Below are positions 11,583 through 42,710 of a stretch of 64,000 nucleotides of DNA, piece by piece (position 1 is the first letter of the stretch; each line of letters begins with the position of its first letter). The notes under the pieces were generated by a model. That model was not told where the DNA came from. It worked only from the letters and a program-made list of their open reading frames with translations, and ran no database searches. The stretch is from the NCBI GenBank assembly GCA_021234155.1, contig JAJEKV010000017.1, positions 8,995,525 through 9,059,524 of the forward strand. Direction: 5' to 3'. Source of the stretch: Isoetes taiwanensis. Its lineage: Eukaryota; Streptophyta; Lycopodiopsida; Isoetales; Isoetaceae. Made by a program: the position numbers and the translations under genes.

Positions 11583-11809
11583 AGGATTTAGTTAAACCAT
11601 TTTAGTTCTATTTTTGTCCTGGATTCTGTTTCAAATATTCTTTCATGAAAATTGAGATCAACATGACTTATAAACAAAGTATTATTGGATTACTAGTAAT
11701 GGTGCCCAGTATTGCTGGGCATAAGTTGACTGCATAAACCTTAAGAATTTTACATGAATGGAAGAGTTCATAGAGTACGTGTTACTGGGCATAAGTTGAT
11801 TGCGTGTTT

Positions 11810-11824
11810 ATCTCTTAAAAACTC
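11810..11824 (+). repeat. Target-site duplication, left copy
   Basis: ATCTCTTAAAAACTC occurs here and again at 14034-14048, exactly bracketing the rearranged LINE. A 15 bp duplication is in the normal range for LINE insertion. Just inside lies a run of ten T (11826-11835), the complement of the element's poly(A) tail. Confidence 0.85.
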
Positions 11825-14033
11825 CTTTTTTTTTTATTGAAGAACGACAAACTTTATTGAAACTCCAAGCCAAAAGCAAAATACAAATGCAGAGGCAGGA
11901 ATAAAGTCTCGGAGGATAATCATGATCCACTGAGTAGAACCACCAGCCTATGCATAAGATAGCACACTCAAATAGGACTCAAATATCAACTGTTGCTTGG
12001 CAGGAGCAAGCGAAGAGCAATGGTATGCCTTAGTGATTCTAGCTTGTGCATCCTGGAGGACAACTGCAGGAGGAATATCCAAACCCTGAAAGATACACAG
12101 TCTTCTGCACTTCCAGATGGACCACACAACCATCCTGATGCTAAATGAAATGCTTGACTCCGCAACTTATTCCAAGCATCCGGATAAATAGCCAAAAGCA
12201 CTTGCTGACTTGTCAATATCACATGAAAAAGAGAAAGCAGCCAAGACCAAACAGGCTGGAGATGAACACATAAAAAGAAACAATGCTCAATGGTCTCGTC
12301 CCTTTGCTTGCACAGTGGGCAAAGTGCTGACACTCGAGGATCAAATTTGTGGACAAGCACATTCACACGAGGGATCTGTGAAGAATCTGCCACCAAAGCA
12401 CCGCCACCTTAGGATGGAGTAGTTTATCCCAAGCCCAAGTCCACATACGTCTCCAATTAGGAGGTGAAAGCTGAAGGGACCACCTAGTGGATGGCGGAAG
12501 GATATCACTATTGACAAGCAGCCTATACATAGAGTTCAGAAGCCTATGCTCGTGAACACTCTGGTGGGAAACCCACATGCACCCTTCAATATCCTCTGGA
12601 GCAACCAATGGCAGAGTACTAGCAATCTTTTGCCAAATAGGTCTGTCCCATCGAGACAATGAGAATTTTGTTTGAAAGATTTGCCATGTCGCTAACTGGC
12701 CAGAATCATACCATGCTGCAACTGTCTTCCGTGTATAAAATATTTGCAAAGGCCCTTGTAGACAAAATGCGTGATGTCTTGGCTGTATCAATCTCTCCTA
12801 CTCAATCTGGATTCTTGCCAAGGAGGAGCGTTTTAGACAATGTTGCTGCTGCTTATGAGGGTATGTATTGGGCCAGATTGAAAGGTCAGCATATAGTCTA
12901 TCTTAAATTAGATTTTGCCAAGGCATATGACAGTGTACATTAAGAATTTTTGGAAAAAAAGCCTCTTAACATTGGGCTTTGGTCAGCAGTTCACCAGTGA
13001 TATTATGAAGCTCCATATCTCGGCACGGTCTACTGTGTTGTTTCAGGGGGAACCCTCCACTGTTTTTTCAGTTGGGCGAGGTGTTCGCCAAGGATGCCCA
13101 TTAGCTCCTCTTTTGTTCACAATAGTAGCTGAGTTCCTCTCACAGCTATTTGCTAAGGCCGTGCAGGATGGGATAGTGCAGGGGTTGAGTATGGATGATG
13201 GTTCACAGGAGACTTGTAACCAGTATGCTGATGACACGTTCCTCTTTCTTGTTGTCGATACGGACAACCTTCAGAATGCAAAGCTTCTTCTTGATACTTT
13301 CTCTTTAGCATCTGGAGTTCTTGTTGGTTGGCCAAAGTGTTCTGCATTATGGACGCTTGATGGGGTTGTACCTCCTTGTGTTGCGGAGTTTCCTTGGAAG
13401 GTGCTTCCAAGGAAACTCCGCAAGCATTTATTTTGGTGGAATACTGCTAAGCTCTCTCTGCCAGCGCGAATAACGCTTGCTAAGCATGTTTTAAGTAATT
13501 CCCATGTCTATATGGCCTCTGCCCTTCTGGCTTCTCAGTCAAAATTTCAGGTGATTGTTACTATTGTCCGTAATTTTATTTGGGGTGGGACTGAGGAGCA
13601 TGTTGTGGTCAAGGTTGCATGGTCCAAATGCACCAAGCCGAAATTTGCAGGTGGTTTGGGTATGACAGACTTCCATTTGCAGAGTAAGATTCTAATTTCT
13701 AAATTCATTTGGAGGATCCTCAAGGATCTGGTTGATTCACCTGGAGTGCAGTTGGCGAGGCAGTCACTTGCACATTGTGTTCCTTTTGGGAAAGCTTCAT
13801 TAAAACCGCTTCTTCCTTGGAGTCTCTTTTATCAGCTATGCCCTTTTCCTAATGCCTCTCCTTTTTTGAAAGGCTTGCTGGAGTCTTGGGAGACAATACG
13901 GACCCTATTTCGTATTGATCTTGTTGCATGTCATCAGTCGAGTGCCCCTTGTTGGTGGATACCTGTGGAAAATAATCTTCCACTTTGTGCCTCGGTTCAT
14001 CCATTAACTCAACGGCGCTGGAGGTTAGCAGGA
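11825..14033 (-). mobile_element. LINE insertion with twin-priming inversion
   Basis: The insertion is about 2.2 kb, flanked by a perfect 15 bp duplication. Read on the minus strand, its 3' part (about 12715 to 11836) carries the C-terminal zinc-binding region and ends in a poly(A) tail. The rest (about 12720 to 14033) is the preceding part of the same LINE in opposite orientation, from the reverse transcriptase palm to the end of the thumb. The two parts meet head to head near 12.71-12.72 kb. The protein is continuous if the inverted part is flipped: it ends in RRWRLAGI and the minus part resumes with WYDSGQLATWQIFQ. This is the geometry described for twin priming of LINE-1. Confidence 0.85.
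11930..12712 (-). pseudogene. LINE C-terminal zinc-binding region (zf-RVT), 3' part
   Basis: On the minus strand a frame from about 12712 down reads WYDSGQLATWQIFQ, FSLSRWDRPIWQKIA and WTWAWDKLLHPKVAVLWWQ, then the knuckle CPLCKQRDETIEHCFFLC near 12300, the signature of the plant LINE reverse transcriptase zinc-binding domain. After a frame change near 12100-12150 it continues as VVWSIWKCRRLCIFQG. The stretch above 12720 in this frame is only the complement of the inverted reverse transcriptase. Confidence 0.85.
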
Positions 14034-14042
14034 ATCTCTTAA
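12720..14042 (+). pseudogene. LINE reverse transcriptase, inverted 5' part of the insertion
   Basis: Starts abruptly at the junction with LSSVYKIFAKALVDKM, continues with ISPTQSGFLPRRSVLDN and LKLDFAKAYDSVH, then hits a stop at about 12940. After a frame change it continues with GRGVRQGCPLAPLLF, the active-site box QYADDTFLFL, and the thumb and connection region (LPARITLAKHVLSN, VRNFIWGG, WSKCTKPKFAGGLGM), ending at RRWRLAGI; the final stop lies in the target-site duplication. It belongs to the plant L1-like group, distinct from the LINE at 9.7 kb. The frameshift near 12940 and the inversion make it non-functional. Confidence 0.85.
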
Positions 14043-14048
14043 AAACTC
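14034..14048 (+). repeat. Target-site duplication, right copy
   Basis: ATCTCTTAAAAACTC, identical to 11810-11824. It marks the 5' side of the insertion. There is no poly(A) on this side, as expected. Confidence 0.85.
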
Positions 14049-14094
14049 TTGTATGAGCGTCACGCTCAAACAAATGTTGAAAATTATTTTGAAT

Positions 14095-14600
14095 AGCAAA
14101 AGTTGCTAGGCTACAAGGCAATTGTTGTCCTGACATTTGTAGGATTGGACTTAAATTGCTATGGTGTTGCTGCGCTATGAGATTGGCCTTAAATTGCTAT
14201 GATGTTGCTAGGCTATATGATTGAACTTATATTGCTACGTCACTGCTGGACTATTAGGCGGTGGTTGTCCTGTTCTTGACATTCATAGGATTGGACTTGA
14301 ATTGACATGTTGTTCCTGGGTTATAAGGTGATTGTTGTCCTGACATTTATAGGATCGGACTTGAATTGCTATGTCATTATTGGGAAAATTGCTAGGTTGT
14401 TGCTAGGCTATAAGATTGAACTTAAATTGCTATGTCATTGCTGGGCTATTAGGCGTGTGTTGCTGGGCTATAAGGCAATTGCTGTCCTAACATTTATAGG
14501 ATTGGACTTGAATTGCTATGTCATTGCTAGACCGATTGTTATTGTCATTAAGATTGGACTTGAGTTGCTATGTCATTGTTATATTGTAGGATTTGGTTCC
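14095..14600 (+). repeat. Degenerate minisatellite-like array
   Basis: The words TTGCTAGGCTA, GGACTTGAATTGCTATG, TTGTTGTCCTGACATTT and GTCATTGCTGGGCTA recur many times in shuffled order with unit lengths of roughly 40-90 bases. Related words (CCCAGTATTGCTGGGCATAA) also occur just left of the LINE at 11.70-11.81 kb, so the LINE probably landed inside or beside this array. Reading frames across it have no recognisable product. Confidence 0.65.
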
Positions 14601-15916
14601 ATTGTGTATACTTTACATCCAATGCACCTTGTGGCATTTGGATAATTGAAGTAATTCAAATCTCAATAGAAATCCAAGTTGTTGTTTGGCATAAGCTGGA
14701 ATGTCAAAATGGTGTGTGCAATTCGATGGGCTTTTACATTAAAAATAGCATTTCTATACATCATGGCAAAGACACCAAACCAAATCGCTGGCATAACATT
14801 CATGGCACGTCACACATTCAATAAAGCATTGGCAACAATACCTTGCAAGTAATTTAGTTCCTTCCATTCATTTTACTGAGAGAATATAAACTATTGTGTT
14901 ATTGATGAAAAATCTAGCATACACATTTAGTTGCAAATCTAGACAGATTGGCTTCTTTCTGCATACAGATCAGTTTCTTTTTGCATAAGTGGGCCTATAA
15001 AAATAAAAATACTAAATTGATTTATCATCCTTTATGGAAAAATATTGTCCTTACTCAAAGAAATAGTTGATAGTTTGTACAAATTCCATGAGCAAGTTCT
15101 AGCTATTTTGCAGTCTGTCCGTCGTTGCTCAAGCGAATACAATTGCAAAGCTCGCAAATCTGCTAACCATTCTCTTGTTCATCTGTAGCAGCTCGTGAGG
15201 TATTGTCACAAACTAACATGAGCTATATTTTCAAGCTTTTTAGTGTCCATATCTCTCTAGCTTAGGCACCATTTGTCTCTGTTGATCCAATGCAAAGAGG
15301 TACTTGCCATGAATATATACTTTCCTAGAACATGGCTTTTAATGACAGAGCCATTTGCACATAGACCTGGCTTTTAATGACAGAGCCATTTGCACATAGA
15401 CCTAAAAATTGTGAATTGAGAGGGGTTCAAGGCTCTTGAGCTTCCGGTGATTCCATCTAGTAAATGTAGTACAATCTAGTCAATGCTGTACTGTAACTTT
15501 TTACTTAGAAATTTTATTGGTAACATTGAGTCTAAATATGGCCATGCTCAATCATAGCTATCTTTGATAGATCTATGCCAAAATACAAAATCTAATATTG
15601 TGAGTTTCATAGATAAAATATAATATGGTTTACTGTACTCCCTTTTAGAGATAGTGGTATAAAACAAACCTTTCAAACATGCAGATGCCTCAAACTATTA
15701 AGTCATGATATCTTTCCATGTTGCCAAAATACAAAATCTAATATTGTGAGTTTCATAGATAAAATATAATATGGTTTACTATACTTCCTTTTAGAGATAG
15801 TGGTATAAAACGAACCTTTCAAACATGCAGATGCCTCAAATTATTAAGTCATGATATATTTCCATGTTGCTATAATCTTTTAAAGCACAAATAGATGCCT
15901 CAAAGAGGTTAACTCC
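14601..15916. other. Intergenic with two local tandem duplications
   Basis: No gene is seen. TGGCTTTTAATGACAGAGCC and following text is duplicated with a 35 bp period (15333-15367, 15368-15402). A 146 bp unit starting TGCCAAAATACAAAATCTAA is repeated at 15576 and 15722, almost identical, ending near 15868. The rest is AT-rich and unremarkable. Confidence 0.6.
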
Positions 15917-16756
15917 TGTTATGAATATGGTAGCTCGGGGGAGTGGTCTTGGATGTTAGTCTTGGTGGACTAGCATGGGTGTCTAAGTTTGGCAAAGTAT
16001 TGGCAAAGAAAGGCAATAAAGGCAATCTATGATGTATATTTATGATGCTAAAAAGGTTTAGCCAAATAAAAAAAGGCTAAAGTCGTATCAGAGACCTATA
16101 AATAGACCCTGAACTTCAATTACATATATCTCGGCAAACAGAGCTTTGATGGAAACGATTCTTACTTCGTTGGAACCGGCTCGGAGTCTAGTTTCCGAAT
16201 TGGGGCAGCACTTTCCGTGAGTCATCCGAATAAGAGAGATATAGCCGGAAGAGTGATAGGGGTCAAAGGAGACTGCTCTACACATTCGCTCTTCAATCTG
16301 ATTCTAAAAAAGCCATTACTTTTTTCTAGAGCTTCTGCTGTTCTTATTCAATAGCCTGTTACTATCCTAGAGTCTAACTCTTGGTGTCTTATATTGAGGA
16401 CTGCTAGCTCGAGGGAGGAGCTACTTGTGGAAGCTGATTGTTAGGCCTTGCCATAATTCTGCCAATTCTTAGCACCGAATGACCCAGTTGTGTGGTAAAC
16501 TATCATACATTGGTTATTGCATCTTGAGCTAGCTCTGGTTTTGGTGAACTAAAGCTTGGCCAATCTGAGTTATCCATGTAACTCATATTGTATGTTTGTT
16601 TCAAATAGAGACCTTTTGTCATTACTAACAGTTTGATTGTGGATTATGTAGCAATTCTGGATGGATTACAGATTGGGAGACCATGAATTGATTGAGAAGC
16701 CTTAAATAAGGTTTCAGGGATATAAAAGGTATGGTTGATTGTTGTGATCCATAACA
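15917..16756 (+). repeat. LTR of a retrotransposon with tRNA-Met primer site
   Basis: The 840 bp segment begins TGTTATG and ends CATAACA, a perfect 7 bp inverted terminal repeat of the TG...CA type. Two bases after its end comes TGGTATCAGAGC, the classic plant primer-binding site for initiator tRNA-Met. A TATA box (TATAAATA, 16097-16104) sits in a good context for a U3 promoter. No matching second LTR and no gag or pol frame follow within the window, so this is a left LTR with a truncated or non-autonomous body, or a relic. The 6 bases before it (AACTCC) could not be tested as a target duplication. Confidence 0.75.
16097..16104 (+). promoter_or_regulatory. TATA box of the LTR
   Basis: TATAAATA within CCTATAAATAGACCC, about 180 bases into the LTR. 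The 14 bases CTATAAATAGACCC are identical to those at the minus-strand TATA box at 26837-26844. Confidence 0.5.
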
Positions 16757-16758
16757 AT

Positions 16759-16771
16759 TGGTATCAGAGCC
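16759..16771 (+). promoter_or_regulatory. Primer-binding site, initiator tRNA-Met type
   Basis: TGGTATCAGAGCC, complementary to the 3' end of plant initiator tRNA-Met, lies two bases after the LTR end. It primes minus-strand DNA synthesis in many Copia and some Gypsy elements. Confidence 0.8.
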
Positions 16772-17460
16772 AAGCTATTCCTAAAGTGCAAAGACTTCCA
16801 GTTGGTGTTGGAGATTGCAAACAGGAATAGAGAACTTTATTCTGGCTATTCCTGATGTTTGTAAGTCATCTAGTTGGTGCTAGTGATTGCAAAATGGAAT
16901 AGAATTCCTCCTCCTAAGAATCTAAATATCTTCTTTCCATGAATTTAAAATTTTAACTTCTTGGATCATTCTTTCCAATCCGTTTCTACCTAGAGTAATC
17001 AATCTTTGGATATCGGTACGATAAAATTGTTTGTTGCAGGAAACATATACGTGCAGGTGATTGGTGACGTGGAATAAGCAGAGGGAACTGAGCCTAATCT
17101 TCCTTATCAATCCATTTCATTTGCCAAAATGGATCTCCCTCCAATCAAGCCTAACCAAAACTGACAATCCTTGGCCAGGATGGATCTCCGTTGAAACTTT
17201 TCCTGCATCTACAGAGGGCGTATCTATGGTGGACGGATCAATCTTTATCGGAACTCTCTATCCTTGACAAATCTTGAACTATTCCAAACTAAACAAATTC
17301 TAAAAAAAATGTAAAGTGTGGCCCATTATTTTAGTAAGATGTCCTAATAATGAATATCCGTCTGTAAGAAATTGTAGTTTAAAAGTAGAGGTGATTTCAA
17401 AATCTGTTAAAAGATTTTAAGGGGTTCGTGCCTTTAGAGAAATTGTAAATCCATTTTATG

Positions 17461-17888: not shown

Positions 17889-19410
17889 TGTGATTGCAAC
17901 GTCCCCTACTCATATACGGTGCACCACCGTATACAAACAGGAGTTCATCCCCCATACCAGCTCCATGCTAATATAGGGCCCTCCACGTAACACTGCAACC
18001 TTGGAATGTTCCAGTGGGAAGAATGAAGGGGTCATTTACCCTGTCTCCCTCAGGGCCTACCTAGCTGCGGAAGCGCAATATACATGTCAGTAGTACATGC
18101 ATCAATAATATATGACCACCACGAGGGGTGGCTCACCACATATCTCCATAGACAAAGATCAATACATCACATAAGGGAGTTCTACCCTGGCTCAGACACA
18201 GGGTTGGACTGACAAGCTTGGGTCTCCAGAGGTCAAGCAGACAGAGTGCAATAACAGTGGAGTTGGCTGGCAAAGGAACATGGCAGTTGGGTAGTCTGCT
18301 CCATCCGCCCCTCCTGTGTTCGCTTTGCAGAGTAGGTTGATAAGTGTTGGGACCTGACTGTAGCCCGCCGGATGCATAGCTAAAGGGGCTATTCCTGGGT
18401 TGCATCTCCCCAGTTCCGATGGGGCAGGTAGGGATCACTCCCTCCAGAGATCTATATGCTGACTCAAGGTGACTAGAGGGCCACTGCCCTTATCCGACTT
18501 GAACCCACTGGAGAGTGACGCATCACTCCACGGGTGTCGAGCCCATGCCTTGCCCACACGCAGTGACAAGCCATTAGACCTAGTTCACAGGGATCCCCGG
18601 TAGGCCTTACACACCAGAGGGATCGTTCTCATGAGTCACGACATGAACCTCCTTGTAAGCCAGTCTGGCCCCTTCACCCACAACCAGGTGTGGCTCTTGT
18701 ACACAGGCCGAATACTAGTGGTGCACTAAAGGGACTAGCTAGGAGCATCAACTACTAGGCTGTAGGTCTCTACCCCCCTTCCCAATACAATGAGTCCACA
18801 GAGATTGTCTATACATCCATATCATCAAAGAACTAAAGAATAATATCTAATCTACATCATAGAAGTTAGGTTCTTTAGTTAGGGCTCGCTATCTAGGTTT
18901 CTATGTGGCTGCTATGGGCAATTCAATAGGCTAAACATGCTAACTCTATGCCCGGACGGCAGATTAGGCTATTGAATTTACGAAATACCTGGTCCCTGGC
19001 TTGCTCCTTTTGCTCCGAATGCGTCCATGTCGTTGTCTTGCTTGGAGATGCGGTCGGAAAAGGAATCTGACGAGTTAGGGTGCTCAGGCAGATCTTGGGA
19101 GTCGGGATTGACTCTTGAAGCGCGCGAACTGGAACTCGGAAGGTTCGTGGACGAAAGGGAAAGTTAGGGTTTGGTTGCCTTACATAGGCTAGCAGTTAGG
19201 GTTAGGGTTTCCATGACCCTTGGTATGCCTCTTAATGGTTAATGGTATAAAGTGCGCACATTAATAAGTGTGCGCACCCTTGCAAGTTGCCACTTAGGGC
19301 GCCACTTGCTTGGCTACACGTCGGCGTACACGTCAATTGGAATGGCGTGTACGCGTGATGGTGCAGTGCGGTATACGTCTTGAGACCGTATATCGTACTG
19401 GAACGTCACA
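17889..19410 (-). repeat. 3' LTR of the Ty3/gypsy chromovirus
   Basis: On the minus strand the segment starts TGTGACGTTCC right after a purine-rich tract and ends GTTGCAATCACA, giving TGTGA...TCACA inverted termini over about 1522 bp. It lies downstream of the minus-strand gag-pol in the correct place for a 3' LTR. No second copy is present up to 35 kb, so the 5' LTR is missing or lies outside what I could align. The left border is inferred from the terminal inverted repeat only. Confidence 0.6.
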
Positions 19411-19428
19411 TTCTCCCCACCTTAAAAA
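19411..19428 (-). promoter_or_regulatory. Polypurine tract
   Basis: On the minus strand TTTAAGGTGGGGAGAA directly precedes the LTR start TGTGACG. A tract like this primes plus-strand DNA synthesis in LTR retrotransposons. The TGTGACG LTR start after a GGTGGGGA-type tract is common in plant chromoviruses. Confidence 0.75.
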
Positions 19429-20266: not shown

Positions 20267-23200
20267 TTAGTCGATTTCTTCGGAGATGATCTTGCCGTCC
20301 CATTGCTCCATGAATTCCGGGTACTGCCTTATGAGGTCGTGCTTAAGTACCCACGTCGCGTCTTCCACTGACAAGTGTTTCCACTTGACCAAGTATTGGA
20401 GAAACTCTGATCTCCTTGTTTTCTTGATTGCTTTATCCAGGATCAAGTCTGGGACTATCTCTAGCTGCTCTTCTGTCATTTCCAACACTGTTGGCATGTC
20501 CAAGACTTCTTCTGGATTTGGAGTATGCTTCTTCAACAAACTCACGTGGAAGACCTTATGAATCTTAAGGTGTGCTGGCAGGTCCAGCTTGTAGGATTGA
20601 TTGCCTACTCTCTTGACTATTCTGAAGGGTCCAGCCCACCTTGGAGCAAGCTTCTTGCAATTTTCGATGCGGAGCTTTGCCTACTTTACCTTGATCTTGA
20701 GCCAAACATTGTCGCCAACTTCAAACTCTCTGACTGTTCGGTGCTTGTCGGCGATGCTCTTTTGTCGACTCCTTGCTGCGAGAAGATATCCTCGAACCTC
20801 TTCCACCAACTGCTGCATGTCGGCCAACATTTGCTGCGAAACCTCTACTTTTGACACTGGATTGTGCCAAGTGTCTGGAGTTAGGCATTGGTAGCCGTAG
20901 TTGATCATGAACGGCGACATTTGGGATGATTCCTGCTTGGTGCTATTATAAGCGAACTCCACCAAGTGAATAAACTCTTCCCACATACCCTGCTTGTTCC
21001 AGACATAGTTTCGTAGCATGTCTTCTAAAATCCTGTTGGTCCGTTTCGTTTGCCCATCCGTCTGAGGATGATAGGCCATGCTCATGGACAGCTTCGTCTG
21101 AATTGTCGTAAACATATCTTGCCAAAAGGCACTCATGAACTTCGGGTCTCTGTCGGAGATGATCTCTCTTGGCATGCCATGGAGCCTGAAGATTTCTTTG
21201 GTGAAGAGCTTTGCTGTATCCAGAGCTGTGTTTGTGGTCTTGCAAGGCACAAAATGTGCCATCTTCGATAACTTGTCGACCACGACCATCAAGGCGTCCT
21301 TCCCTCTTACTGTCCTTGGAAGCCCTGTTATGAAGTCCATGCTGATGACCTCCCACTTAGCGTTTGGCACCGCTAATGGTTCCAATGCCCCTGGAATTCG
21401 GAGCTGCTCCGCCTTTGTTTGTTGACACAACTGGCACTCTTTGATGTAGCGAGCTATCTGCTTCTTTATGCCTGGCCAGTAATAGCTGCTTCGGATTTTG
21501 AAGTATGTCTTCATGAATCCTGCATGGCCAGCTATTGGGCTGTTGTGGGTGTCGTGAAGAATCAGCTTCCTCACTCCTGATGACTCTGGCATGCACAACT
21601 TATTCTTGTGATATAAGAGGTTACCTTCCTTCTTGAAATTCTTGAAGGTTTCCCTCTCCTTGTCTGTTCTTGCTTCTTTGCACAAGCTCGCCCACACTTC
21701 CTTGAAATCTGCATCTGTTGGCAAGGTTTCTTCAATCTTCCTTCCGAAGTCTCTGGTGAGCGTGGAGATTGCATTGCAATGGACCCTTGTTGTCAGGGGG
21801 TGCCTTGAAAGTGCATCTGCTACCACATTGAGCTTCCCCGGCTTATAGACTATGTCGAAGTCGTATTCTTCAAAGAACTCCATCCACCTTCTTTGCCTCA
21901 GATTGAGGGGTGGTTGCGTGAATACGTATTGGAGACTCTGATGATCTGTGTCGAGTTGGAACTTCCTCCCCAACAGGTAGTGCCTCCAAATCCGTAGTGC
22001 CCTGACAACTGCAAGCAACTCTTGATCATGAGTCGGGTAGCGTGTTTCGGTGTCGTTCATCTTTCGCGAATCATATGCTACCACTCGCTCTTCTTGCATC
22101 AATACTGTGCCTGTAGCAATTTTACTTGCATCCGTTGCTACCAGCTTGTCCTTCTCGGGGTCTGGCAAGGTTAGGATGGGTGCAGTTGTCAAAGCTTCCT
22201 TCAACAAGACGAATCCCGCTTGGGCTTTCTTCCGCCAGTGCTCTACCCAATCTTTCACCTTTTCCGCCCTTGTCAAATCTGTTAGCGGGGCTGCTATCTT
22301 TGCAAAGTTCTTCATGAACTTCCTATAGTACCCTGCTAGGCCGAGAAAGCTTCTGACTTCATGGATGTTCTTTGGCGCCGGCCATTGTATCACTGCTTCG
22401 ATCTTGGCAGGGTCTGTCGAAATTCCCTCCGCTGAGATCACATGCCCCAGATAGTCCACTCTCTCCGTTGCGAAGTGACATTTTGACAACTTCGCGTACA
22501 ACTGGTGTCTTCTGAGCTTCTCCATCACTTTTCTTAGGTGTTGTACATGTTCTTCTAGGGATTTACTGTATACTAGGATATCGTCAAAGAATACTATGAC
22601 GAATGCGTCTAGGAACTTCCTGAAGATGTCGTTCATGAGTCTCATGAATGTTGCTGGGGTGTTTGACAATCCAAACGGCATCACGGTGAACTTGTAATGC
22701 TCATAACGAGTTCTGAATGCAGTCTTGTGGATGTCCTCTTCCTTGATCCTGATCTGATGGTACCCTGACCTCAGGTCTATCTTGGAGAACACCTTTGCAC
22801 CTTGGAGTTGATCCATCAGGTCGTCTGATCTCGGGAGAGCATACTTGTTCTTGATGGTGTGCTTGTTTAACTGCCTGTAATCTATACATATCCTCAAGCT
22901 ACCATCCTTCTTCTTTACGAACAAGATGGGTGCTCCAAATGGAGAAACACTGGGTTTGATGAAGTCTAGGTCAAGCAATTCCTGCAATTCCTTCTTCAGC
23001 TCAATTAGTTCCTGGGTCATCATCCTGTACGGCGCTTTACTTGTTGGTTTTGTCCCTGGTTCGAGTGCTATCTCACACTCGATTCCCCTGTAAGGAGGAA
23101 GCTTCTTGATCTCGTCTGGAAAGAGATCATGGAACTCCTTTACCAATTTAGCTATTTGTTTGGGTAGCTTGTTGAGCACCTTATCTTCCTCACTATCTCC

Positions 23201-25050
23201 TAACTCAGGCTCTTCCAGCTGTAGCTTGAAGATATAGGCTATCTGCTCGCTCCTCAAGTACTTGAGCAGGCGCTTACTAGACATACATTGCATGATAGGC
23301 ACAACTTCTTTACCTGTAATTTCTATGATTTTGCCATTGGGCGCCGTGAGGGTCACCTTCCACTTCCCACAATCAATGATGGCTCCTGCTGAGCCGAGGT
23401 ACTCCATGCCGATAATTAAATCGTACTTTCCAATGTTCATCACCTCGGCTCCCATGGGGATGTTGATTCATGGCAAGTCGATGTCGAAGTTTATCCTCTT
23501 GCCGGCCGTGTGCCTTATTCCCCCGTTTGCTAACACCACGGGTCTCGGCTTTAACTTCAACGGTTTCAGCTTCAACATTTCGACCATCCTTGGGGACGCA
23601 AAATTGTGGCTACTTCCTGAGTCTATCAGGATTACGAATGACTTGGATTTGGCCTTCCCTACTGTGGATATTACTTGATACTGCTTCTCAGCTTGTTCTG
23701 TATCCATTGCGGCAAAGATGTGACACTCACCCTGTATGAAATCGCGAGCTTCCTCGCCGTCGTCGTCAGAGGTAGTCTCCCATCCGCCCATTTCTGCTAG
23801 CACCGTATTCATGACGAACGGGCAGTTTGCTGTCCTATGGCCCGGTTGGAAGCACCTGAAGCAGAGTTGCTTCTCGATGCACTCCTGCCTCTTCTCTTTA
23901 GGTATTGCCTGCAAAAAGGACCGTACTGCCTTCGAATAATTCGACCCTTCTTGCCGCGGTTTATCTTTGAAGGATACCTGTTTCCTTTCTTGCTGCTTCC
24001 CATAGTTGCCACTGTATGGGGCCTTTGCTGGTCCCGGACTAGTTGCTCTGGGGCTGTAGCTGCCCAATGCTTGGCCCTTGTCCTTGTAGTATTGCTGCTT
24101 CGGCCCACTGTTTGGAGGCCCAGATCCTTGCAGGCTGACGGCCTTTGATTCTGCCTCTGAGACTGTTCGAGGGTTGATTGCCCTCACCAGCTTCCTTATT
24201 TCGTCATTCAGCCCTTCAATGTATCCTTCGACTGCATGCCGTTCACTTAGTTTTGGCACATACAGCCTCAGCCTCATGAATTCTTCCGTGTATTTCTGCA
24301 CGGACTTATTATCCTGCTGCAGCCTGTAGAACTGTTGCATCATATGGCATTTGTGCTCTCTTGGCACATAGTGTCGCTTGAATGCCTTGGAGAACTTCCG
24401 AAACCTGCAGCTGTCTCGGCTTAGCTTGTGCGACTTGGCATATCCTTTTCACCATATGCGCGCTGCCCCCTTGAGGTTGGCTGTGGCCACCTTGCCCTTG
24501 TCCTTGTCCTTCATTCCATAGGCATTACCGTATTCGTTCATCTCATCTAGCCAGGCTTCTGCCTCCATGCCTGGCCTGTTGTCGCCCGAGAACTGTTCGA
24601 GCTTTCTTGCCTTTCACACATTGCTGAGTGCGGAGTCTACCTTCTTTTGATAATCCGAGGCCCCTGCTGCCTTGAGCCTGCCCTCTCTGCGGTCTTGCAC
24701 TTCCTCTTCCTCGAAGTCCGAGTCCGATTTTGAGCTGGTGTCGGAGGTGTCTGTGCTTGGAGACCTCCTTCTCTTGCTCCTCTTCTTATCTTTCCCCGAC
24801 TTTCGAGATGTTGCTTACGGCCCTTGAACATTGTTATCCGGCCCGACTGATGCTTATGCCGCCAGTAGGGCTTTTATTTGCTGAAGTTTTTACTTCATTT
24901 GCGACATTTCCTCTTCTGGGGTTAGAGCGCCGTAATCCTCGAACAGGTTCCTTGCAATGGATTGCATGTCCGGGGTCTCTTCATCTTTGTTGGCTCTCCT
25001 GTCTTTTCGACTATTCTTTGATCCCTAGCTGCATACACAGTTGACCATAG
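20267..25050 (-). pseudogene. Ty3/gypsy chromovirus gag-pol polyprotein
   Basis: Read on the minus strand. Gag (about 25050 to 23700) has FKRHYVPREHKCHMMQQFYR and a zinc knuckle CFRCFQPGHRTANC. Protease follows with the LIDSGSSHNF active site. Reverse transcriptase has [23 protein letters not shown] and the catalytic FFDDILVYS. RNase H has [15 protein letters not shown]. Integrase has the HHCC knuckle ending CQLCQQTK, then MDFITGLP and SDRDPKF. The C-terminus is a chromodomain (LQYLVKWKHLSVEDATWV, about 20420-20290), which marks a chromovirus; in this clade it directs integration to particular chromatin. From about 24.5 kb down it is one frame interrupted by TGA at 24449, TGA at 23468 (inside protease) and TAG at 20681 (integrase C-terminus). 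More stops lie upstream in gag (for example TGA at 24614, TAA at 24815). The copy is dead but recent enough to keep its frame. Confidence 0.92.
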
Positions 25051-25208: not shown

Positions 25209-26740
25209 TATTCTTGAAATCGCCGGTAGGATGGGTTATCCTCAAGAAATTTCTTAACTTGGGCTGTTCCTACCGAATGTCCCAAGTTCCTGAGAATATT
25301 TGTTGATGTCCCTCCCTGCAAGGCTTGCACCAAGTCTTCTACTCTGCGGTCGGACGTGTAGGCCGCGGCACCGCTAGTCTTCCCTGCCGTCGGTAGGGTA
25401 TGGCGAAGTCGAAGAGGTCAAGTGCCATGGCTCTCTTGACTAGGACGACATGGTCAACTGTTGTGAGCAGTCGAGCGTGCCTGCCAAAGCCGGAGAGCGC
25501 AATGAGCATGAACACTCCTTCCTCGCCTCTTGGACTGAACTTGCGGTGTATGACCGCTATCCTTCCGTCCATCAGCAGAGGCAGATAATGCCTCAATGAT
25601 CTGTCTCTGCTTGCTGCTAACGAGTCGTCATCTCCTCGCCCGCCAGCTCTGTGTCTGCCCGCGTACTCATCGACGTCGACTTCTGTGAGTTCCCTGTAGT
25701 CCGTGACCGTCGATGAGATCCGTCTGAGGTCGATCTCGCCTCTTCTTTCTGCTGGGGCTGTCGTCGAAGAGCTCGGCATTAAAATATTCGTGGTCTTCCC
25801 ACGGATCCCATCCTTTCTTGGACGGCGTAAAACTCTTCTTCAGTTGGTAGCTCCTTAGCTTCCATTATTTGCCTGATGTTGCTGTAGGCTTGTATGTCTG
25901 AAGTTGACTCTCCTGTGTAAGTGTCGGCTTCTTTTACTTGAAGTGGAAAGTCAGAGGCTCCTCGGACGATGAAATCGTCCAGATCTGATTGTTGCCGCAG
26001 TTGGTGCAGCAATTCGTCGAGTCTGTATCCCCTTTCCCTGCATTCGGGAAGGTTCTGGATGTTGTTGAGAAGAAGGTATTCCTCGCCGTCGATGATGATG
26101 GGGGCTAGGCTTGTGATGCCTAGCCCGAGCGGGGGAGCGATCCTGAGGGTCTGCCGCTCGCGTTCAAAGACTGTTGTCTCCTGCTCTGCCAGTCGCCCTC
26201 TCTTCTTCTGGGTCAAGCTCGACATAGTCCTCGTCGTCAGAGTCCTTGTCATCAGTTCTTCCTTCCTGCTCCTGTTGGTACTGTAGAAGGAGTTGATCTT
26301 CCCTTGGGGTCTACATCCATGGGAGGGATGGAGGTTTCCCCAATAGGGTTCTGGGCACGGTGAGAGAGAAAGATTGCTAGGGCTGTGGTGTAGGAGAAAT
26401 ACTTGGTCTTGTCAACAGTCAAGACCATGTAGTCTGGCAGCCTCTGAGCCCTATTGGTCAGGTACTTGGCGATGTTTGGAACATCACCCAAGGCTGCTTG
26501 GAGGGATGGCCTAGGAACAAAATAGCCCGTGCAAGGGGGAGCTGCACTAATGACGGTCCTACCTTGGCTTGGAACTCGGTGAGGACTTCTCTGTAAGCTG
26601 GGGTTGCGTGCAGTGTGGCTTGGACATCAATCTCCTTCCGAAAAACTCGGAAGATGGCATTGACATCGGCCTTGGCTGCATGGCCACTGGCGCTGTATCA
26701 TCTCCTGAAGTCAGCAGTTGCCATGGATCTAGAGGGGAAG
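25209..26740 (-). pseudogene. Unknown protein, decayed, upstream of chromovirus gag
   Basis: A series of minus-strand open stretches in changing frames reads as one protein of about 500 residues. It may begin at an ATG near 26721 (MATADFRR, then TGA), continuing with VNAIFRVFRKEIDVQATL, a frame change near 26560, YFVPRPSLQAALGDVPNIAK and VDKTKYFSYTTALAIFLSH. Then come an acidic stretch (TDDKDSDDEDYVELDPEEE), LGITSLAPIIIDGEEYLLLN, YSNIRQIMEAKELPTEEEFY, LTTVDHVVLVKRAMALDLF, and a last piece ending KKFLEDNPSYRRFQE before TAG at about 25209. I recognise no family. Same strand, composition and level of decay as the gag-pol below it suggest an extra ORF of the same element; a separate host gene is possible. 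Confidence 0.45.
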
Positions 26741-26844: not shown

Positions 26845-27037
26845 GACAAGGGGACAAACCCTAATTTTTGGGTGACTTGGAAAGCTCTTGAGGTTGGGCA
26901 ATTCTGATCTATTTTGAGGTCATAATGAAGATTGGAATACTACTTTGAGGGTTTGAGCATGACTAGGACTGTCTAATGAACCTATTGCAACAACTAGAGG
27001 TCAATTGGATATGGGATGCTATAGGAAATGCTAGAAG

Positions 27038-27104
27038 GTCTCACGGTGTGTGCCAGGGCACAAAACAAAAAGTTTGTTTTTGGCCTGGGCGCATACCGTG
27101 AGAC
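27038..27104. repeat. Hairpin 1, arms about 32 bp
   Basis: Left arm GTCTCACGGTGTGTGCC...AAACAAA and right arm TTTGTTTTTGGCCTGGGC...ACCGTGAGAC are near-perfect complements around a loop of about 3 bases. A second hairpin of almost the same sequence lies 200 bases away. Confidence 0.85.
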
Positions 27105-27239
27105 ATTAGCCTATTTTGGTCTATACTTGCCCAATTGAGGTAAAGTAAGGGTCAAAACATGATAATCTCATCGAGATAATCAAGATTGGCCCCTTACTTG
27201 GTCGATTTGGTGAAGTTTTGAGCTAGTTTGGGCATGCAG

Positions 27240-27307
27240 GTCTCACGATGTGCGACAGGGCACAAAACTAAAAGTTTGTTTTTTGGCCTGGGCGCATACC
27301 GTGAGAC
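27240..27307. repeat. Hairpin 2, near copy of hairpin 1
   Basis: Left arm GTCTCACGATGTGCGAC, right arm ending GCGCATACCGTGAGAC. Mismatches sit at different places in the two left arms while the right arms are almost identical. Both lie in the roughly 600 bp non-coding space between the H3-fold protein and the TATA box. Confidence 0.85.
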
Positions 27308-27453
27308 ATTGACCTCTGTTTGACCTACAAATATCCAAATTTAGTAAAACAAAAGCCAAATATTACTAATTGAACCTATTTAAGCTCAATTACTCACTCA
27401 TAACTTGCAACAAAACACTTTCTATATTAACAAAATTTTAACATGTACAAAAT

Positions 27454-28585
27454 TTACTGGCGTTCTCCCTTAATATAACTGGCCAGTTCCATGTCTTTCT
27501 TCATCAGTGTGACTCTTTTAGCATGTACTGTGCAGGCTGTAGAATCTTGAAAGTGCTGCACCAGCTTTTGCTCGGCCGCTTCCTGTAGCGCAAGCAGCAT
27601 TTCGTCTGTTACCCTCATCCCGGTGTTAAACTCCTGCGTTACTTCTCTAACTAAACGGGCGAAGGGGGCACGGGGAATCAGGAAGCTGAAGCTGCGCTGG
27701 AAATGCCGGATCTCCCTTAATGCTCTTCGCTGGCTGTCTTTCTTCCCGGTTCTTTTTCCTGGCTTCCGTGGAAGCTTGGGTATCTCGGGAGGTGGCTTTA
27801 GTGTCTGCTTCTTCGATGGCCGTCCACCTTCGATAATTCTGACCCTATTCTCCTGGTAATAGGAGTTGTAGGCCTCCTATTTCTTCATGAATTCAGTGTG
27901 TTCTTTCATTTTCTTCTGGTAGATCCTCTTGAGGTCTGTTACGTATGCTTCTCGGGCAGGTCTTGGCGCCTTCTTCCTGTCCCAAGTCGGGTAGGGGGGG
28001 AGGGGTTTCTGTGCCTGCTCGGGCTGCTCCTGGTCTGGTGCCGCTTGCTCATTGACTGGAGCCTTCGAAGAACTCCCAACTTCAGGGTTGGGGTTGAAGT
28101 CCCCGTCGTCCGATTCGTCTGACGAAGCAGGTTTGTTGGGCGGGCTCCTCAATGATGATCTTCGTTCGTGGAACCTTCTTGATCTTTCTTTTGGGCGGCT
28201 CCACGAATTTGCCCTTCTTCTGCTTCAATTCTTCGGCCTCCTTGGCCTCCTGTTCCTCCCTCTTCCTCTTCTTTTCAGATCTTTTCTTCTCTCGGCGCCG
28301 CTCCTTTGCTTCATGCTTCCGGATCCACGCCGTGAGTTCTTCCTCCTCGGTCAGCTCGAGCGTCGGCTCCCTCTGTTCTTCATGTGGCTCGGCGCCCCGA
28401 TCGTGCTCCTCCTTCTGTTTCTTCTCCTCCTCCATTTCCTCGAGGACTCTTTGAATCTCGTCGCCTCCCTCTCCCTCGAGCACTTCTGTACCCGGCTGCG
28501 AGTGCACCTCCTCTTCATCCTCCCGCTGGTCTACTTCCAGTATCAACTCTAGTGCGAAGATACTTATTCTATTTGGTTAGGGTAT
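27454..28585 (-). pseudogene. Long protein with C-terminal histone H3 fold (CENH3-like residues), decayed
   Basis: The last about 94 residues (27735 to 27454, stop TAA) are an unmistakable H3 core: RALREIRHFQRSFSFLIP (N-helix), APFARLVREVTQEF (helix 1), LLALQEAAEQKLVQHFQD (helix 2), HAKRVTLMKKDMELA (loop 2 and helix 3), ending YIKGERQ. IRHFQ, LIPxAPFxR and VTLMKKDxELA are typical of centromeric H3, but loop 1 has the length of ordinary H3, with no insertion and no tryptophan. Upstream is a long tail instead of the ARTKQTARKS-type H3 tail: glutamate-rich, then lysine/arginine-rich coiled-coil-like (KERRREKKRSEKKRKREEQ), then acidic and proline-rich. Damage: a TAG (KK*EAYN) at about 27877 and a frameshift near 28100. 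No start codon is visible; the frame opens after AG at about 28555, possibly a splice acceptor. It is on the same strand as the chromovirus. Confidence 0.8.
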
Positions 28586-35665: not shown

Positions 35666-37437
35666 TCATAAACGAGAAGAGAGGTAGTTTCATCAAATGT
35701 AACTAAAAGAGTGTTTATTACAGTTTAGAATATCATCCACTGTCATGTTTGAACCAGCGTAAAATCCGAAAAACTCCATGTGCTTTGACTTTAACATCAC
35801 AACACAGAAAAAACTCTTTGTCCACAAACACATGCTGTATTTTCTTTGGTTCAAGATGATATTTAAGACGCTCGGTTTATTACATGATGATTGTCCCTAG
35901 AATCACTTTTTGTAGTTGTTCTGGTACGGAGTGTCTGTCTGTTGGTATCGCGCATTATAAGAGTGAAGATAAATCTAGAAAAATGGAACAAACTAGTATT
36001 GAATTACAATAACATAAATATACAAAGGAATAAATACATAAAAGTTCAAAAATCAATAAGCCATCAGCCACAATGTACAGAATCATAGTTTGGCTATTTC
36101 CACTAAGATTTTTGCACGTAGCATGTCGTTCGTAACACTTTGTCCATGCTTGCTCAAGATCTGCTAAGGTGTACTTGGAATCAACTATCGTTTTCAATTT
36201 ACCATCTTTGATTAAGTCCATTAGAACTTTAAGATCCTTGCTATTTGGTGACCAGAAATAAGGTAGCAACTTTTGCTTTGCCAAGGTAAGGAACATAAGA
36301 CCACTCCTCATGATTGCACCTAAAGTAGCAAGAAGATCGACCACTCACGCTCTTCTAGCAAGAACATGCTGAAATGTAGACCCAAGGAATCCCCTGCTTG
36401 CGCAGATGAATGGCGACATTAAATTTGCAACTTCGAAGGGCTCTTTAATGCAATCCCTTCCGGAGTCTTGTAGTCTAGCACTTCATCAGCACCTAGGCTT
36501 TTGATTAACTCAACATCCGTGCCCCACATGTGGTCATTACATAAGCACCCGGCAAGTTTTGCTAGCTGCATAGAGTACCATTATAAGTTAGGTATCAAAT
36601 GTGTAAATTTGTAATATTCATGAACATTATAAGACCTAATGGATTTACTCATGGATTCAAATGCATATATAATTTCTATACTCGGATGGAGCTCATGATG
36701 GAGCTTCTACAAGGTACGGAATAAAAGGAACGTTGCAACAAATCTACTTTGTTTACCAACTTTGCTCCAAGCTGTGGATGTTAACAAAGCAGTAGTAGCT
36801 TGTCGTATGTACTGTATTTCTGATACACCTGAAGAATGATTTTACCACAGACAGTTAACAAATTGATCTACTCCGAGCTAACATGTGTCTTCTAAAATGC
36901 ATACCGTCCACTTCATTATTAACACTATCACATTGACAAATAGCTTAAGCATCCTTGCTGTGTTCACTATGAGGCAAAACTCTAAAAAGAAGAAATTTAC
37001 CTTAAATGTTCTAGGAAGGATGATAGGATTCTGATTCCCACATATATTCCCTGAGATCTGCTTCTATTAAAGACAGGTACCTACATGCAGAAAACTCACA
37101 ATGAGAACCAAAGCTATCCTTTTTCCTGCACGATGGCAACAATGTGACTAGCAGCGCACAACATCACAGACGGCATCTTCCTGCACCTCCTGCATTGCAT
37201 CACATAGTTTACTTTTAAACAATGAATGCTTTTGAATAATGTGCCATAGAGATTTATTCCCTTAACTTATAATTAAAGATGGAAATGAGAAAGCAAAAGG
37301 AGACCCTGTTACAGTACAAACAATGGCCTTGCATAGCAGGCTATGTGCAGGGCCAACCCTTAAGGTCCAAAAATGCAGCATCATCATTTTCCAATCTGCA
37401 CCGATATGCTTTTTAAGCATTCATCAATGAATCAATC
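35666..37437 (+). repeat. 1.77 kb duplicated segment, copy A
   Basis: Nearly the whole segment is repeated at 55254-57044 in the same orientation, starting at TCATAAACGAG in both and ending around CATTCATCAATGAATC. The copies differ by scattered substitutions and small indels. It contains the last exon and flanks of a quinone oxidoreductase gene. Copies A and B flank the Helentron-rich block. Confidence 0.9.
36083..36565 (-). pseudogene. Quinone oxidoreductase-like last exon, copy A, broken
   Basis: Counterpart of the exon at 55672-56148. The middle is preserved (GLMFLTLAKQKLLPYFWSPN, LIKDGKLKTIVDSKYTLADL). Near the 5' end of the exon several small indels break the frame, and at the 3' end the family motif RHATGKI is damaged to RHATCKN with a changed C-terminus. 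It cannot encode the normal end of the enzyme, and no upstream exons accompany it. Confidence 0.8.
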
Positions 37438-38045: not shown

Positions 38046-41000
38046 GACATGTAATGTATTTCGGCTGACAATAATATGTAATGTATTTCGGGTGACAAAA
38101 AATATGTTTGCCTATTTCGAGTTTTGTTACCCATTATTTTGACATTTTGTCCGTAGTATTGTCGTATGGTCCAACGATTAGGGTACGTGATAATGATTGA
38201 AATCAGCGTTCTCGGTAGACTCAAAAGTTACACCAAAAAGTGGTGCATGGGTTTGACACAAATGTTATGATTGTGGGACAAACAGCATCACATGTTGAAG
38301 TATTCATAGCATTGAACATTGCTTCTTGGCGTATTCATAGCATTGAACATTGCTTCAATGTTTTTAGGTCCATACGTGTGAAACTGTATGTATTGTTGTA
38401 TTGAGGTATATGAAAATGTTTATTTGTACTCATTTTTCCCCCTTTCAAAGTAGCATGCAAAGGTTTCAATGTCGAAATGTTAATGAACTAAAGGGAATTG
38501 CTTTTCTTGAGCCCACGTTATATGCTTTTATCGGTTGTTAGGGAATTGCATCGCGATCACAAGTAAGCCATCGTAAGTAGGTGGCATATGAAATTGTTTT
38601 TGGTCAATTTGTCTTGTTGAATGGGGATGTAGGAAATCGTTTCTTAGTAATGGTCGTTGATTATCATAGGGATACGTTTTACGATAGTTTCGTATGAAGT
38701 TTTTCATTTTTATATCTTGATCTGATATTTTGTTTAGCGACTATTGGATTGCCGTTCATTCTTTTTAACGTAGGTCCTGTGCGTGTTGTCACAATTAGAG
38801 ACTAGGATTTGAATGTTGATTTTGAAGGTACCTGTTGAATGTTTTTTACTATTCAAAATCTATCTGTGAATTAACTTGGAAACAAAAGTTCATACGCCTA
38901 AGCTGCTTCGCAGTCTTTTTTTGTGCTAGATATTTACATTTAGCAATGACGAGAAAGTTGAAGTTAAATATTTGGCCTTCTTGTTATCGTACTATTTTTC
39001 CCTAAAGAATGCAGTAACAATGAACATACAACGATGGAGAATCAATCAGATGAGCTTGCTAAAAAAGCAAGAACTCTAAAAAGTTGGGCTTCATAAGACA
39101 TTACGAGGAAGTAGGATTCCAGTTCATGCTTGAAGACAGTGTACAATTCTCTTCTCAAATACATCTTAACAAATTTTAGGTTAGCACGTTTTTGCGTATC
39201 TTTTTAGAAATATATCACATCAGTCTCTGCCATTAGAAGTAGAAAGGCAAGAACGTTGGAGGAGGACCGTATCTTCTTCGAAATACATTACACTATCTCT
39301 CGCCATTAGAAGTAGAAAGGCAAGAACATCAGGGGAACAATGAATCTAGATTTTTCTATTCACCTGCCCTGTTTTTCCGTAATGTGAGCAGATCGTAGCT
39401 ATTCACGAGAAGTATGTGGTAAATGTTGATTTGTCTTCTATCTGTGGAACGTTCCCCTTATCAGAGTTTGAGTTTGTGGACATCATGTACAAAGGGTATA
39501 AAAAATCATGGTTTAGTTGTTTTCCACTATTACGTGCATTGCTGAATAGTCCATACACATTGTCAAGTACATTTACACCGAACTAAAGATTGGTACTTAC
39601 CTCCTTATCATCGTGGAAAATATATCACATCGGTTTCCGTCATTAAAATTACAGAGACTAGACGTATTCATGAGAACTAACTGATAAATGTTGTTGGTCT
39701 TCTCCCTACAGAACGTTTCCCTTAGCAGAGTTTGAGTTTAGGTTTTGCTTTCACAAAAAGAACATATTATGAATGTAAGGACAACATTTTGTTAGTTAGT
39801 GTACATAAATATCTATATTTTTCTGTTTGAGAGCCAAGTTTGGATCGCTCTTCAGCATGGACGAAGCACTACGTTCATTTTAAGCATGCATGCCCCATAG
39901 ACACTGAAAGGAATATCCATTAGTTCCGTGTTCGCCCTCCTTCTAAGTTCTTTAATTTGCGTTTGTTTTGTTGTAGTGTTCACTGTGGTTGACTTTTTTT
40001 ATCAACTAGACAGTTAGCAAACTTCCACAACTAGAGAGTAAGCATTTGAGTGTTAACTTAGTGAATATACATAATAAATGGCCTTTACTGTTGAAATTGG
40101 ATTGGTAAAGTAACTTGTAAGCAGTTGTCTCTACTTTCCAGTTTGTACCACAAACTATTGTACTAGACATGCATGTAACGAGATGGTCAATAAATTGAAC
40201 TCAGGTAATTGAGTTTCTTGTCATCAAACTTCCTTTCCTCTTGATGTAGTGTCCATCTTCACCGTACACTGCGCTACTCACATTGTTCCTTCGGCCTTTA
40301 ATTGCTAGTGCCCTAGTTAGATTAGCTCTCTCTCTTAAGTGAGAGTACATTGTTGCTACAGTAGAACTGTAATATATATTCTTCGTGGCATTTGCACGAA
40401 TATGTGTTACGATGCTTCTGAGCGCCCAAATGATGTAGTGGACATGATTCAAGTATCTGCAAGTTTTATTCATCGCTCTTTTAGATGGCAGCATCTTTTT
40501 TTTGCTTTTTATATCCTATTAAGATTATGGTTTCGTAGATTATTTTATCTTCAAAAAAGACATTTTTTTTTTTTGTCTTTTGTACATTTCGTAATTTAGT
40601 ACGTATGTAGCATGTGTTTTTTCATGTAGAAATAATATGCAGCATGGGAAATAAATGACAAAAGATTCATTAGCACTGTTTGTAACAGATGGCTGGTCGT
40701 CCAAATTGTGGATGGGATGCACGATATGCACGTGTGTATGATGAATTCTGTAGTTCTATTGAGCACAGATCGCTCACAAACAAAAGGTGTGCAGAATTGT
40801 TTTTAGAGGCAAACCCTGACATAAAATTGTCAGCTAAAACGATATGCAATTACACGAGCAAGAGAAAGAAGTATGAATGCCAATCCAACACGGTTTGTTC
40901 GAGGAGTGTAACTGCAGCAAGATGGTCGCAAATCTTATGTAGTTTCAACGAATTTCGTCGTGTCAATGAGCACAATTGTTTGTCAGTGAAACAGAGTTTG

Positions 41001-42710
41001 GAATTGTTCGTAAAGGCGACCCCGGACCTGGAAGTAAATTCCGCAAGTATATTCGACCATTTATTTGAGGGTGGGGAAACAACCACAATCAATAATGTGC
41101 AAACAAGCTCTGTTCACACCATCCAAAATTTGGCTTATCCCACAGGCATTTTCGATGAGAAAGAATGGTTGCAGTACGAGGGTAGATTCTATGATTTTCG
41201 TAATGCTCCTGAACGAAGATGTTTGTCGGAAAAACAGTGTGTAGACATGTTCGTAAATACATTGCCGGATGTTCGTTTGTGCCTTGAATCCATATGTCAC
41301 TATTTGAGCATGTGCGAAAGAGCAAACCAGAATGTTGATGTTCAGACGGAGGTCAATGCAATGTTAGAAAATTCTCCTAATTTGAACATTGATCGTGCTT
41401 TGTCTATGAGATTACAGATCGAAACTACATGGGGAGAACGATATGCTGCTAAGTTTCATGAATTTCGAAGCTCTTCTTCTTGTAGATGTTTATCTGAGAA
41501 AAGGTGTGTGGAATTGTTCGTACGGGAATTTCCTGATGTCGGCATCTCCGCCCGCACTATACGCGATATTTTAAGCAGGACTAGAAGAGCAAATGATTGT
41601 TTTGATGATGCAATTTTGGAGTTATTCAACGAGCATTCTATAGACATACCTATATTTACATGTGATCTTTGCAACAGATTGTGCTTTGCAAAGCAAATGA
41701 TGTGTTCAAAAACACACTTTAAGAATATTTGGAATGTAGTTAATGGTATGTCATATAATGCTCGTAGTCATACATGCCAAAAGTGTCATGGGAAAAGAAA
41801 ATACATTGTACCTCAAAACATCAGGATGAATTTCGTACCTGAAGAGGTGAAGAAGTTATCAGAATTGGAGAATCGACTCATATCATTGAGAATTCCGTTT
41901 GCTTTAATATTTGGTCAACATCGTTTGCGCGGTGGCCTAATACATGTTGCATCAGATATCGAAGGAACACAAGTTGCGTTGCCACGTCTACATGATAATG
42001 ATGTCGTGATAAGGTTGCAATTGAAAAGGAGAATGTCGGATCCGAACGTACACATGGAAGGTCCTGTTAGACCATTTGCTGTTATGTCTGCACTGAATTT
42101 TTTGCGTACTAAGAAATTGTATGAAGAAGCGAACGTAAAAATTGTTGATGATTGGAGTGTTTTTTTTGAACATAATGTTGATGTCATCAACATTGTCGCA
42201 ACCGATGACGGTGTAGATCAAAGTAGCAATGGACATGAAGGGGACACCTTAATTTGGAATGTAACTCCTGAGATGGTAAGGGACTATGAAGACTCAGTTG
42301 TTGCTGTAGCTCCTGGTGAAGGTTCTCATCCTTTAGGTTTGTATGCTATTCCACATGCAGAAGAAATGTGTTTCCCAGAATTGTTTGGTGGTGAACCTAG
42401 GCCATCTATTACGTACGATACGTTTACTTACAAACAGATATGTCATTGGGAGTTAATGAATGCTGATCGACGTTTTGCAAGGTCCATATCGAACGCATTC
42501 TTCAAGCTAATAAAAGAGGAACTGAATTTTGTCAGTGGTTCAGCTAATTTTCGTATACGCCATGGTAAACGAAATGATTTCAACCTAACAGCAACGGATG
42601 TTTTAGATCCCTTGAAGTTGCGAGAAGCTTGCAAAGCAAATATGGGGTACACTGATTTGAAATCATTGCGTTCGTCGCCTCAAAAATTGGACACTGTGAA
42701 GAAGGATGCA
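38046..42710 (+). mobile_element. Helentron/Helitron2-type transposon, copy 1 (truncated)
   Basis: Collinear and almost identical to 44689 onward (offset about 6.64 kb) from ACATGTAATG at 38047 to GAAGGATGCA at 42710, where copy 2 continues into Rep and helicase but copy 1 switches to unrelated sequence. The 2.6 kb before the coding region has internal short repeats, for example ATTCATAGCATTGAACATTG twice near 38.30-38.36 kb and CCATTAGAAGTAGAAAGGCA twice near 39.23-39.33 kb. The nearby 92 bp inverted repeat may be part of the element's end. Confidence 0.8.

Follow-up and report, generated by a model that had tools for sequence, protein, structure and literature searches.

A histone H3 gene within a Ty3/gypsy chromovirus family of Isoetes taiwanensis

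To whom does a histone H3 fold belong when it sits at the end of a long protein, next to a retrotransposon? The question is raised by a 64,000-nucleotide stretch of the quillwort Isoetes taiwanensis (assembly GCA_021234155.1, contig JAJEKV010000017.1, positions 8,995,525 to 9,059,524), referred to here as the window, in which an original prediction made from the letters alone had described a divergent H3 with a long charged tail beside a chromovirus. The coding part of this H3 frame occupies 27457-27876 on the minus strand, encodes 140 amino acids, and is closed by a stop codon at 27454-27456. Its translation carries the H3 helices in the order that had been claimed and is a significant match to Pfam Histone (E value of 1.4e-26, 93.5 bits, curated cut-off of 26.4), and the closest solved chain in the PDB is H3.3 (E value of 7.2e-26). 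Loop 1 has the canonical H3 length, as had been read from the letters; the aligned plant centromeric H3 proteins (CENH3s) have one residue more. The charged tail of more than 250 residues is present as well, but the window copy does not carry it intact: it is damaged twice, by one TAG at 27877-27879 and by one frame change between 28082-28576 and 27877-28224. The residues homologous to the middle part of this linker are uninterrupted by a stop in another copy, L027. No MARTK tip was found in the window copy.

The genome (1,658,258,908 bases in 1,110 contigs) was searched with the window H3, and the best 150 of 10,411 first-look candidates were scored. Every one of the 150 matches was significant, and all except the window itself were 75 to 94% identical to the window H3; the longest open frame has 507 residues. 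The H3 locus is multicopy and not a single gene. The original prediction would have fallen with a single-copy locus syntenic with a host CENH3 gene or with the lack of a significant H3 match; the copy number and the strong H3 match speak against both. The 150 copies are spread over 85 contigs and cluster mildly at the local scale, 6 pairs being no more than 100 kb apart where about 1.4 would be expected. Gypsy elements make up 10.7% of the Isoetes taiwanensis assembly according to the available text of its description (PMC8566536).

The boundaries of the repeated unit are best seen in copy C941 (matches L035 and L036), which has two long terminal repeats (LTRs) of 1,071 bp at 4670-5740 and 16382-17451, in direct orientation and 98.3% identical. 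Its H3 frame, a second open reading frame (ORF2), gag-pol, and the integrase chromodomain all lie between these LTRs (Table 1). In both C941 and the window, gag, protease, reverse transcriptase (RT), RNase H, and integrase follow one another in the order of a Ty3/gypsy chromovirus; in the window this gag-pol-chromodomain block is found downstream of the H3 on the same strand (24448-20267), which bears out the chromovirus neighbor of the original prediction. An LTR also precedes the H3 frame in C1056, C907a, and C1038, while none was found for C907b within the 14.5 kb examined. No tRNA-type primer binding site was seen by eye after the C941 LTR; C941 is abutted by another LTR. Linkage was then assessed in 20 copies taken at roughly even, hand-picked steps over ranks 31 to 150 of the genome matches, their layout not being known beforehand. 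Gag-pol lay 4 to 6 kb downstream of the H3 on the same strand in 17 of these copies and antisense to it in none, and the C941 LTR lay 1.5 to 3.3 kb upstream in 13. The best gag-pol piece was only 38% and 62% identical in two sampled copies, L053 and L056. The LTRs of C941 and the linkage in the sampled copies support the divergent H3 amid retrotransposon sequence of the original prediction and make it more specific: the H3 is the element's own. By this arrangement, we conclude that the H3 is a gene of a Ty3/gypsy chromovirus, the first ORF after the 5′ LTR, ahead of ORF2 and gag-pol-chromodomain.

Selection on the H3 gene was assessed from the ratio of nonsynonymous to synonymous substitution rates (dN/dS). 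The median pairwise dN/dS of the H3 region in 33 copies was 0.084, based on 480 of 528 pairs. The other 48 pairs in the true frame, and three rows of the pair comparisons for the tip, linker, ORF2, and pol, were excluded for undefined dS. The fold was more constrained than the adjoining linker (median of 0.052 versus 0.150). The same sequences gave 1.70 and 1.85 in the shifted frames and 1.57 in the antisense frame, and 400 nucleotides of spacer past the H3 stop gave 0.74 to 0.89 in 30 copies; on these frame controls, a chance open frame or a passenger was rejected. Maximum likelihood put omega at 0.120 (33 copies) and 0.147 (54 copies). Outside the search query, four pairs had dN/dS values of 0.366, 0.310, 0.264, and 0.255 across the tip and linker; a fifth pair, compared over 82 codons, had 0.099. 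For the pol genes, RT gave 0.045 to 0.233 in four pairs, and the integrase value was 0.294 in C907a and 0.053 in the window. The synonymous divergence between the window and C941 was 1.18 in the H3, 1.34 in RT, and 0.70 in integrase; these values are alike, which indicates that the H3 and pol have been in the family for about equally long. Judged by these substitution patterns, strong purifying selection has kept the H3 protein as the family spread.

The complete form of the protein is exemplified by the 416 residues of L027, which read MARTKQTARVPPGD, followed by a long linker rich in Glu, Lys, and Arg and then by the H3 fold. Comparison of 54 copies found a readable MART[K/R]xTA tip in 35; in 10 others the tip aligns with substitutions, stops, or frame changes, and in 9, including the window, it could not be located. 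Of the 35 readable tips, 25 have V and 9 have K at position 9, the remaining one having a stop at position 8; P occupies position 10 in 30. At the protein level, the H3 tip is conserved as ARTK[QE]TAR, with silent variation among its codons. The ARKS context of K27 was not found in any of the 54 copies in any of three frames. A universal loss of K9 was considered and abandoned once the K9-bearing copies had been counted. In the core, R69, C110, H113, K115, D123, and L126 are invariant in all 54 copies and R83 is kept in 53; we take these residues to serve in H3-H3′ pairing and DNA contact. All 54 copies have P in place of R63 and A in place of L65, as CENH3 does in its LIP-A segment. Four H3 helices were present in an AlphaFold model, at low confidence (mean pLDDT of 62.9, pTM of 0.30), and nucleosome chains ranked first when this model was searched with Foldseek (E value of 4.5e-5, TM of 0.32 by query length).

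A protein database search with the element H3 returned 509 proteins, and the leading named entries among the 120 best are plant CENH3s, the first of which aligns over 63% of the query with 62% identity. Full-length-like proteins with such an H3 end gave 90 matches, none above 55% identity. The top match of that full-length search, P0002 of Nymphaea colorata, is labeled CENH3 and was set aside as two canonical H3 in tandem. In the best tree, the element H3 and two long-branch database proteins form a group separate from both plant CENH3 and canonical H3 (support of 92/90). Union with plant CENH3 was not rejected by the approximately unbiased test (p-AU of 0.397), and neither was union with canonical H3 (p-AU of 0.174). 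A mosquito protein was the partner of the element H3 in the LG tree, with a support of 99; the mixture-model tree gave 82/38 for the same grouping, which we judged to be a long-branch effect. The suggested derivation from CENH3 is only one possibility. The common LIP-APF segment and the plant CENH3s at the head of the named matches speak for it, and the tree position apart and an H3-like loop 1, as long as in H3.1 and without the longer loop of CENH3, speak against it.

Transposon silencing works through marks on histone H3. The reading that we favor, to which we assign a probability of about 0.45, is that this chromovirus family encodes its own H3, forms part of its own chromatin with it, and resists silencing. 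The element H3, as its sequence suggests, would pair with host H4 and enter nucleosomes, probably at element copies that have just been made or are transcribed. Its tail would offer the K4 end, associated with open chromatin, but no ARKS context for K27; as K9, the site of heterochromatic silencing, is absent from 25 of the 35 readable tips, these would also escape heterochromatin marks. Because the K4 end is kept while the K27 context and often K9 are missing, the element would shape part of its own chromatin and so resist silencing. A fuller version, in which the element supplies an H3 with the activating-mark end and without the silencing-mark lysines, loads it onto its own copies, and has kept it through long diversification, is possible but doubtful.

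Several observations weigh against the idea of self-made chromatin. K9 is retained in 9 of the 35 readable tips, and its loss is therefore not universal. An acidic-basic linker of such length departs from a canonical tail and may work in a different way. Compared by eye with HP1, the chromodomain of the element keeps the cage W and lacks Y24 and Y48, as in the plant group II type. With these aromatic cage residues missing, the chromodomain provides no link to K9 methylation. The ranking of copies by protein similarity to the query biases dN downward. The start region of the H3 gene is damaged in C941, which has the best LTR pair, and about 40 of the 150 scored matches (counted by eye) have a stop inside the matched stretch. 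Most H3 copies are decayed, since the frame is open from the tip through the fold in only 4 of 54 (L027, C907a, C1038, and C1056; 416 to 456 residues), and the last three of these had been chosen for their long frames.

The same H3 could instead act as an integration beacon, marking chromatin, possibly centromere-like chromatin, that the integrase or its chromodomain recognizes, by which new copies would be steered to safe regions. Plant CENH3s as the best named matches (best 120 of 509), the LIP-APF segment, and the chromodomain on the element's integrase would all fit such a role, but a loop 1 unlike that of CENH3 and the dispersal of 150 copies over 85 contigs with weak clustering, not limited to a few centromeres, make it unlikely. 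The H3 might also be a decoy or poison, weakening silencing everywhere by competition for the enzymes that modify tails, for chaperones, or for host H4; this would explain why a divergent body bears an exact ARTKQTAR tip (V or K at position 9). We consider this improbable, as the conserved DNA-contact and dimer residues suggest incorporation. Alternatively, the H3 and its charged linker might condense RNA or cDNA in the particle or preintegration complex, with nucleosomes being secondary. The long basic and acidic linker and the place of the H3 as the first ORF are in keeping with packaging, which is nevertheless about as improbable given that mere nucleic acid binding needs neither a conserved H3-H3′ interface nor an H3 tip.

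Two further explanations deny the protein any role in the element. LTR elements can pick up host genes, and a fragment captured by chance would be a functionless hitchhiker, which agrees with the broken state of most copies today. Strong purifying selection confined to the true frame leaves this with very little probability, as does an H3 dS (1.18) like that of RT (1.34) and integrase (0.70), which is not that of a recent passenger. That a host CENH3 or H3 gene merely lies beside an unrelated element, or that the assembly is at fault, found no supporting point and has a negligible probability; the multicopy state, the position between LTRs, and the same linked layout on separate contigs rule out a host gene.

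The features of the window copy and of C941 are collected in Table 1.

Table 1. Features of the H3-bearing element in the window and in copy C941 (positions within each sequence)
Sequence	Feature	Position	Strand	Evidence or remark
Window	H3 histone fold and linker end (C-terminal 140 amino acids of the element's first protein)	27454..27876	-	Pfam, PDB, selection
Window	Middle linker of the H3 protein	27877..28224	-	Same frame as the fold; ended by in-frame TAG 27877-27879
Window	N-terminal charged linker of the H3 protein	28082..28576	-	Other frame; frame change in the window copy
Window	ORF2, unknown protein	25339..26626	-	Three broken frames; colinear with ORF2 of other copies
Window	gag and protease	23468..24448	-	Retrotrans_gag 8.4e-13, RVP_2 1.2e-4
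Window	Reverse transcriptase, RNase H, integrase	20681..23467	-	RVT_1 4.9e-39, RT_RNaseH 2.4e-32, Integrase_H2C2 4.8e-19, rve 8e-9
Window	Integrase C terminus and chromodomain	20267..20680	-	SH3_Tf2-1 1.2e-19, Chromo 1e-9
Window	LTR, 3′ end of internal region	18403..19411	-	blastn with C941 LTR
Window	5′ leader sequence where flank expected	17899..18402	-	Permuted or tandem copy
C941	H3 frame	6809-8266		
C941	ORF2	about 9130-10514		In two frames
C941	gag-pol	10662-14744		
C941	Integrase end and chromodomain	14937-15500		Piece matches chain named Chromo domain protein 1, 2.8e-5

The window copy is colinear with C941 across 9.3 kb at 80% identity (28381-19250), continues into the LTR at 19411-18403, and ends in leader sequence at 17899. 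By blastn, its LTR is 84% identical to that of C941 over 612 columns and 81% over 162, with LTR positions 161 to 471 unmatched, and the LTR-leader stretch as a whole matches C941 5141-6237 (LTR plus leader). Leader in place of flank after the LTR indicates a permuted or tandem copy, and no 5′ LTR was found for the window copy. The LTR-then-leader arrangement of 17899-19411 resembles the insertion of a one-LTR circle or a tandem, and C1038 likewise shows tandem copies with LTRs in common. ORF2 has no relative in Pfam or the protein database and no significant one in the PDB (best E value of 0.18); its dN/dS was 0.12 to 0.36 in four pairs. A unit of about 70 nucleotides is repeated in the spacer that separates the H3 frame from ORF2 (27036-27111 and 27239-27310) and also occurs in L002 and L003.

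Elsewhere in the window, nearly identical direct repeats at 38046-41045 and 44689-47692, 6.64 kb apart, contain a DUF6570 frame, with Helitron helicase-like and PIF1 frames further on. A second pair of direct repeats (35666-37311 and 55254-56916) is 19.6 kb apart with pieces 95 to 98% identical, and the repeat at 55254-56916 contains a zinc-binding dehydrogenase fragment. In the reverse transcriptase frames at 9629-10915 and 12912-14042, RVT_1 was the sole Pfam domain found. Long frames at 61379-62655 have no Pfam match; they may resemble a plant meiosis protein.

We know of no transposable element with a counterdefense of this kind at the level of chromatin. If the proposal holds, an element-encoded H3 with changed mark sites in many copies turns the target of silencing into a weapon, and the ability of selfish DNA to write its own chromatin state becomes directly testable. 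The element is also a source of a naturally occurring H3 whose tail contains an insert of about 300 residues, and counts of H3 or CENH3 in the quillwort lineage may include element copies. The original prediction knew of no described element with such a gene, and the literature searched agrees: no retrotransposon-encoded histone H3 appeared among the matches listed in the open-licence PMC literature, which does not establish its absence in print. The word "histone" is absent from the main text, as available, of the Isoetes taiwanensis assembly paper (PMC8566536).

Among known histones, plant CENH3s (P0092, P0094, P0096, and P0097) share the EIRHFQ, LIP-APF, and VTLM-KD-LA motifs with the element H3 and are 50 to 62% identical over 63 to 86% of the query. 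The element protein differs from them in a loop 1 that is one residue shorter, in RVTDEML in place of RW-T/Q-AEAL, in a far longer N-terminal part, and in riding on a mobile element. Canonical H3.1 and H3.3 have an identical ARTKQTAR tip and a loop 1 of equal length, and the majority residue of the element H3 is that of H3.1 at 48 of 88 core positions; unlike these histones, the element H3 has mostly V9 and P10, no ARKS (K27) context that we could find, and the long charged insert. Giant viruses such as Medusavirus and Melbournevirus are likewise selfish elements that encode histones. As described in the excerpts available, these are DNA viruses with histone doublets or all core histones, whereas the present case is an LTR retrotransposon in which only H3 was found. 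The closest relatives in overall structure are the plant group II chromoviruses, which in the available text of PMC3350952 have the same LTRs, gag, PR-RT-RH-IN, and a chromodomain at the integrase C terminus. According to PMC3350952, chromodomains of the CHD_II type lack Y24 and usually Y48, and the TWE motif is extremely conserved; in the element it reads TWV. In contrast to these chromoviruses, the Isoetes element has two extra ORFs before gag, one of which encodes a histone H3.
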